Shown in pieces: positions 38,331 to 56,164 of a stretch of 64,000 bases of DNA. A program made the position numbers and the translations under genes. Positions within the stretch are counted from its first letter, which is position 1; every line of letters starts with the position of its first letter. This DNA is from Prochlorococcus sp. AG-363-C20. GTDB taxonomy: Bacteria > Cyanobacteriota > Cyanobacteriia > PCC-6307 > Cyanobiaceae. The stretch covers positions 1 through 64,000 of the forward strand of contig QCFI01000007.1 of the NCBI GenBank assembly GCA_003280295.1. Direction: 5' to 3'. The notes under the pieces were generated by a model. The model did no database searches and had not been told where the DNA came from. It worked only from the letters and a program-made list of their open reading frames with translations.

Positions 38331-38704
<374 letters not shown>

Positions 38705-38727
38705 TTTAAAAGAAAGTGGGATTTGAC

Positions 38728-38766
38728 CTCTAACTACATAAACAACCAAAACTGATGTAGTTAGAG
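38728..38766 (+). repeat. 12-bp perfect hairpin after the c-subunit gene
   Basis: CTCTAACTACAT at 38728-38739 and ATGTAGTTAGAG at 38755-38766 are perfect complements with a 15-base A-rich loop. The hairpin starts 23 bases after the atpE stop. No T-tract follows directly, which argues for mRNA end protection or processing rather than termination. Confidence 0.8.
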
Positions 38767-38783
38767 ATCAACCTCATGTTGAT
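38767..38783 (+). repeat. Second hairpin, in tandem, before the b'-subunit gene
   Basis: ATCAAC at 38767-38772, loop CTCAT, and GTTGAT at 38778-38783 form a six-bp stem immediately abutting the 12-bp hairpin; TTCTTTG follows. The 67 bases between it and the ATG of the b' gene are rich in T and C. Confidence 0.6.
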
Positions 38784-54175: not shown

Positions 54176-54586
54176 TCAGATGGTCGATTTGGTTGCTTGT
54201 AGTCTTGCTCTAGCGCGATTGAGGTTTTGTTTTGCTTTTATTTTTTCTGTGGAATTAACTTCATTTTCTACTTGAGTGAAATCACTTTTTGCTTGTTCTA
54301 ATTCTGCTTCTGCTGTAGTGGCATCGATTGTGCTACCTAATTCAGCACCATTCACCAAAACTGTTACTTCGTCATCTTCTACTTCTGCAAATCCCCCCAT
54401 TAGGGCTATGGAATTCCAATTTCCATTGGTGAGGACCCTAAGAACGCCAATATCAAGGGCAGTAACCATGGAAATATGACCAGGGAGAATGCCTAGTAAG
54501 CCTGTTGTACTTGGAAGGATTACTTCTTCGGCTGTGCCATCAAACACGCTCTGGTCAGGCGCCAGCACTCGGAGGGTGAGGGACAT
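54176..54586 (-). CDS. atpC: ATP synthase F1 subunit epsilon
   Basis: A 136-residue epsilon subunit (atpE in Synechocystis naming). The N-terminal beta-barrel (MSLTLRVLAPDQSVFDGTAEEVILPSTTG, GILPGHISMVTALDIG) and the C-terminal helical hairpin (residues 90-136) are intact. It inhibits ATP hydrolysis and links gamma to the c-ring. It follows atpD with 105 bases between, which contain a strong hairpin. Together with atpD it forms the second ATP synthase operon, separate from the main one as in other cyanobacteria. Confidence 0.98.
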   Translation of the reverse strand: MSLTLRVLAPDQSVFDGTAEEVILPSTTGLLGILPGHISMVTALDIGVLRVLTNGNWNSIALMGGFAEVEDDEVTVLVNGAELGSTIDATTAEAELEQAKSDFTQVENEVNSTEKIKAKQNLNRARARLQATKSTI

Positions 54587-54651
54587 TTAGGAGAGAGTGT
54601 TGAGAATGTTAATTGAGTTGGAGACAGAGTAGGGCAAGCTAAAGCCTTTTC

Positions 54652-54688
54652 CCATTAGGAGGAGATTTTTTTAACCCCCTCCTAATGG
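54652..54688 (-). repeat. 11-bp hairpin between the beta- and epsilon-subunit genes
   Basis: CCATTAGGAGG and CCTCCTAATGG are perfect complements at 54652-54662 and 54678-54688, with a 15-base loop that is A-rich in the transcript. It begins three bases after the atpD stop and ends 65 bases before the atpC start. No T-tract follows in the transcribed direction, so processing or mRNA stabilisation is more likely than termination. Confidence 0.8.
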
Positions 54689-54691
54689 AAT

Positions 54692-56164
<1,473 letters not shown>

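Follow-up and report, generated by a model that had tools for sequence, protein, structure and literature searches.

An ATP synthase needs three beta subunits for each epsilon subunit, and in most cyanobacteria the two genes form an operon (reviewed in PMC11124002). The question raised by this locus is whether the RNA between the two genes helps to make their output unequal. The window, a 64,000-nt stretch of Prochlorococcus sp. AG-363-C20, carries the beta gene atpD (atpB in cyanobacterial naming) at 54692-56158 on the minus strand, an ORF of 488 aa that is 87–98% identical over its full length to cyanobacterial beta proteins. The epsilon gene atpC (cyanobacterial atpE; 54176-54586, minus strand, ORF of 136 aa), whose orthologues sit directly downstream of beta in relatives, follows on the same strand after a gap of 105 nt.

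A hairpin between the beta and epsilon genes

The initial annotation had described a perfect 11-bp inverted repeat at 54652-54688, starting three bases past the atpD stop codon. The repeat is present and lies directly after atpD, but read on the coding (minus) strand it proves longer and stronger than described: it extends inward via two G-U pairs and outward by two further pairs, to a total of 18 without interruption between 54690 and 54650, with the stem beginning only 1 nt past the stop. The arms, at 54690-54673 and 54667-54650, enclose the loop AAAAA (54672-54668), and the minus-strand sequence reads UUCCAUUAGGAGGGGGUU-AAAAA-AAUCUCCUCCUAAUGGGA.

As minus-strand RNA the hairpin folds with –27.2 kcal/mol (z –6.24), and none of 200 shuffled sequences folded equally well. 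The plus-strand RNA of the same site reaches only –18.0 kcal/mol, because the G-U pairs turn into A-C mismatches there. Among 133 codirectional gaps, taken from sampled stretches of 22 picocyanobacterial genomes including that of the window, the atpD hairpin ranked first; it is beyond chance. The bases adjoining the stem on its 3' side, AAAGGCTTT, contain no U-tract, and a terminator scan of the minus strand gave no match, on which grounds an intrinsic (Rho-independent) terminator was rejected. With no mismatches allowed, the hairpin pattern occurs at one place in the genome, and this single copy rules out a dispersed palindromic (REP-like) repeat. A covariance-model search against Rfam at the beta-epsilon hairpin returned nothing credible.

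Between the hairpin and the epsilon start lies a pyrimidine-rich, unstructured linker (54587-54649, minus strand), again without a U-tract, which leaves ~60 nt free; on the minus strand it contains no promoter-like and no terminator-like match. Its last 12 bases, directly 5' of the epsilon start (ACUCUCUCCUAA, 54587-54598, minus strand), are complementary, allowing G-U pairs, to the hairpin 5' arm and offer a possible alternative pairing. The 3' arm of the hairpin thus resembles the epsilon start region.

Recurrence in relatives and at other junctions

The atpD-atpC gap was taken from 118 cyanobacterial loci, 117 of them distinct. The genus mate G001 and Prochlorococcus sp. AG-363-K07 have identical gaps (L007 and L050), in keeping with a Prochlorococcus lineage for the window. 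For the control survey, genes were called across the window, 400 kb of one genus mate and 20-kb stretches of 20 more genomes of the family; the best hairpin was scored in every same-strand gap of 40–170 nt and compared with 100 dinucleotide shuffles of that gap, a hairpin being called significant at p ≤ 0.02. Within the family, 34 of 87 atpD-atpC gaps in this length range contain a significant hairpin, compared with 15 of 127 (12%) control gaps unrelated to ATP synthase (Fisher p = 5e-6). The excess persists when the sequences are collapsed into clusters (26 of 58 with a significant hairpin, p = 2e-6), so common descent of close relatives is not its cause. Outside the family, other cyanobacteria carry a hairpin in 16 of 22 atpD-atpC gaps, and in the genus of the window every genome with atpD, four in all, has one; their stems measure roughly 9–18 bp and have no common sequence.

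The hairpins of relatives are mostly unrelated in sequence and occupy the same position. Across the 61 significant hairpins the stem starts at a median of 7 nt past the stop codon, and a U-rich tail (at least 6 T in the next nine bases) follows only one of them. Retention in relatives under a different sequence, which the initial annotation had set as its own test, is thus what was found. Since structure is kept by position while sequence has turned over, such an element is missed by sequence-based RNA family searches. In one homologous clade (L176-L178, L181-L183), 4 of 10 pairs are altered on both sides with pairing kept; this was matched by 8 of 500 shuffles, and sliding the pairing partner yields 0–1 such changes. 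Covariation was assessable in two clades only, and the second (A3) shows no both-sided change.

The Nostoc-type cyanobacteria (L043, L044, L046, L048, L052, L053, L057) form the atpD-atpC hairpin from tandem short repeats such as GTCATTA or GTCAGTT, the same structure from a different origin. The strongest hairpin in the set, a GC-rich 14-bp stem of –32.0 kcal/mol, belongs to a family genome (L209) and has a sequence unlike any other. Strong hairpins without a U-tract also follow the stop codons of other genes; one example in a genus mate is a near-perfect 21-bp stem in a gap of 104 nt that follows an unrelated gene (L114, 10422-11843, minus strand; G003, 200001-220000). Strand asymmetry was considered as proof of RNA function and dropped: the 5' arm is the G-rich one in 51 atpD hairpins against 5, yet the controls show the same bias (32 against 11).

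AT-rich Prochlorococcus of the high-light type (for example L018 and L032-L037; the label is inferred from composition and gap form) have gaps of 40–57 nt without a hairpin, and several Synechococcus and Cyanobium genomes have atpD-atpC gaps of 1–42 nt that likewise lack it. Beyond the cyanobacteria, beta-epsilon gaps have a median length of 8.5 nt and are mostly shorter than 20 nt; 11 exceed this length, 2 of them with a hairpin. The cyanobacterial lineages without a hairpin need the same 3:1 ratio, and the hairpin is therefore dispensable for it: the beta hairpin is a recurrent yet dispensable feature. The large ATP synthase operon of Prochlorococcus MED4 shows position-dependent decay (PMC2897979); MED4 belongs to the high-light strains, which in our set apparently lack the beta hairpin.

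A second hairpin in the window lies after the gene of the c subunit (38456-38704, plus strand, start taken at MDSITT...), where the initial annotation had correctly seen the same layout of a strong hairpin without a U-tract. It spans 38723-38771 on the plus strand, begins 18 nt past the c stop codon and consists of 16 pairs with one internal mismatch around a 15-nt loop (–17.6 to –17.8 kcal/mol, z –7.05). A significant hairpin (p ≤ 0.02) follows the c gene in 10 of 29 genomes, an enrichment weaker and less consistent than that at beta. In one genome (L156, G009) the gap between c and b' holds a perfect 20-bp stem of –35.9 kcal/mol. The alpha-gamma junction, which also separates subunits needed at 3:1, has a gap of ~30 nt and a significant hairpin in none of 22 genomes, and none of 21 genomes has one after delta. 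Of the three subunits required in larger amount than the one encoded next, two (beta and c) thus have a hairpin after their gene, and the third, alpha, does not. This pattern partly fits a role in stoichiometry; it equally fits the placement of hairpins wherever there is room. The suggestion of the initial annotation that the hairpin controls stoichiometry is not supported: the alpha-gamma junction is bare, so that a rule for every 3:1 junction fails there, and the beta hairpin is absent from high-light Prochlorococcus and several Synechococcus and Cyanobium genomes.

Upstream of the c gene, between a and c, the window contains a match to the Rfam ATPC RNA motif (RF01067; 38297-38393, plus strand; 41.0 bits, E = 1.9e-6). 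With a score just below the gathering threshold of 45, the match escapes a default Rfam scan. In most of the family genomes examined, a and c are separated by 164–177 nt, with the same paired segments, GGTCC/GGGCC and CATCTC/GAGATG.

Possible roles of the beta-epsilon hairpin

Cyanobacteria possess both RNase E and PNPase, the latter being easily halted by stable structures (PMC10989914). From the anatomy of the locus we consider it probable that the hairpin acts as a 3'-end stabilizer between co-transcribed beta and epsilon genes, leaving a protected atpD mRNA. A stem just past the stop codon, followed by a free linker of ~60 nt, devoid of a U-tract and more stable as coding-strand RNA than as its complement, agrees with a barrier to 3'-to-5' exonucleases after endonucleolytic cleavage further downstream. 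We hypothesize that beta and epsilon would be transcribed together, that an endonuclease, likely RNase E, would cut the transcript in the unstructured linker or inside epsilon, and that 3'-to-5' exonucleases would then trim back the new end until halted by the 18-bp stem. The product would be a relatively stable mRNA ending just past the beta stop codon. Beta mRNA would then exceed epsilon mRNA and may help to meet the 3:1 need, the remainder being supplied by translation. The first rank among 133 gaps, the excess at atpD-atpC, the hairpins of all four genus members, the compensatory changes in one clade and the clostridial precedent favour this reading; the lineages without a hairpin, the bare alpha-gamma junction, the less consistent hairpin after c and the second clade without covariation weigh against it.

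The same hairpin might instead act on transcription, as a partial terminator without a U-tract at which RNA polymerase halts in a fraction of rounds, so that less epsilon is transcribed. The stem is very stable, and internal terminators reportedly set operon ratios in other prokaryotes (PMC9045158, PMC10450193). However, a U-tract is missing here and from 60 of the 61 comparable hairpins, the minus-strand terminator scan is empty, and the groEL gene of the same window, by contrast, has TTTT after its terminal stem; partial termination is in our view unlikely. It is also conceivable that the structure does nothing, being a palindrome or repeat that arose by template switching or repeat insertion and is tolerated, without function, because the gap is long. 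The near-complete turnover of sequence between related genomes would be expected of such a structure, the stems of the heterocystous genomes are indeed tandem short repeats (L043, L044, L048, L052), and many genomes have no hairpin at all. For single genomes a neutral palindrome is possible, but it leaves unexplained the excess at atpD-atpC over comparable gaps of the same family and the compensatory changes in one clade. Retention of a hairpin in all four genus members speaks against it too, as does the single copy, which means that this genome holds no dispersed repeat of it, and as a general account we find neutrality rather improbable.

A third alternative is control of epsilon translation. 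The hairpin, or a duplex of its 5' arm and the region around the epsilon start, could couple translation of epsilon to ribosomes that finish beta, and the same junction offers a precedent in E. coli uncDC, where, by the title of a 1994 study by Dallmann and Dunn cited in PMC11124002, secondary structure reportedly governs epsilon expression at the level of translation. Positions 54674-54685 of the 5' arm could form a duplex of –17.9 kcal/mol with the 12 bases before the epsilon AUG, and 1.9% of shuffles do equally well. The local hairpin is nevertheless far more stable (–32.5 kcal/mol, compared with –18.7 kcal/mol when the 3' arm is blocked), forms first and leaves ~60 nt open upstream of the epsilon start. 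Nor is pairing with the gene's own target, striking as it is in the window, clearly favoured across 59 loci (mean rank 0.40; rank ≤ 0.05 at 6 of 59, among them several heterocystous repeats), and we regard this explanation as very improbable.

Returning to protection of the atpD 3' end, a broader proposal can be made tentatively, one that we would sooner doubt than assert: cyanobacteria may tune the subunit ratios of ATP synthase by paired 3'-protective hairpins, one after beta and one after c, with position and strength selected, sequence replaceable, and repeated loss in streamlined lineages. If true, this would be the first RNA-level control of stoichiometry described for the cyanobacterial ATP synthase.

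Comparison with known systems

Structured RNA between ATP synthase genes has precedents. Like the Rfam ATPC motif (RF01067), the beta-epsilon hairpin lies between ATP synthase genes of picocyanobacteria; the ATPC motif differs in sitting between the a and c genes and in having a conserved sequence, whereas the hairpin matches no Rfam family. E. coli uncDC shares with it an RNA structure at the same beta-epsilon junction. The uncDC structure acts, by the title of that work, on epsilon translation, whereas the stable stem described here excludes the epsilon start. The hairpin also resembles the differential mRNA decay of E. coli (malEFG type; PMC5927463), in which RNA structure shields the segment of one gene within a polycistronic mRNA and co-transcribed genes differ in level. 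In the genome-wide map of that study, however, most protective structures are located within the coding sequence of the downstream gene, while the hairpin abuts the upstream stop codon.

The closest likeness is to selective RNA processing and stabilization (SRPS) in Clostridium, where a stable stem-loop without a U-run directly follows the high-demand gene of an operon for a protein complex, ATP synthase operons being listed among the examples. In C. cellulolyticum, highly expressed genes within operons are followed by such stem-loops at the ends left by processing; the transcript ratio varies with the folding energy of the stem-loop, and of 33 stem-loops at such ends, 28 have neither a U-run nor other features of a terminator (PMC4423207). 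Two processing sites flank the c gene of its F-type ATPase, whose transcript exceeds those of the adjacent genes 3–5-fold (PMC4423207), and the SLOFE paper counts ATP synthases among the SRPS operons (PMC8219983). Clostridial species differ from one another in stem energies and orthologous stems, as the genomes here do, and two marks of an SRPS stem-loop, a stable fold within the 3' UTR of an operon gene and the lack of a U-run, are both found at the beta-epsilon junction. The cases differ in that Clostridium offers measured processing sites and transcript ratios, while the beta-epsilon hairpin is described from its sequence, and in that the clostridial F-ATPase case concerns the c gene, while the strongest hairpin here follows beta, in a separate beta-epsilon unit and in cyanobacteria.

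A 2024 review of bacterial mRNA mechanisms for unequal ATP synthase subunit production states that relevant reports are lacking for cyanobacteria (PMC11124002). The hairpin is a good cyanobacterial candidate for a known kind of element, the SRPS-like 3'-stabilizing intercistronic hairpin. It offers a defined and testable element at the beta-epsilon junction for studying the unequal production of ATP synthase subunits in cyanobacteria, and the lineages with and without it form a natural comparison.
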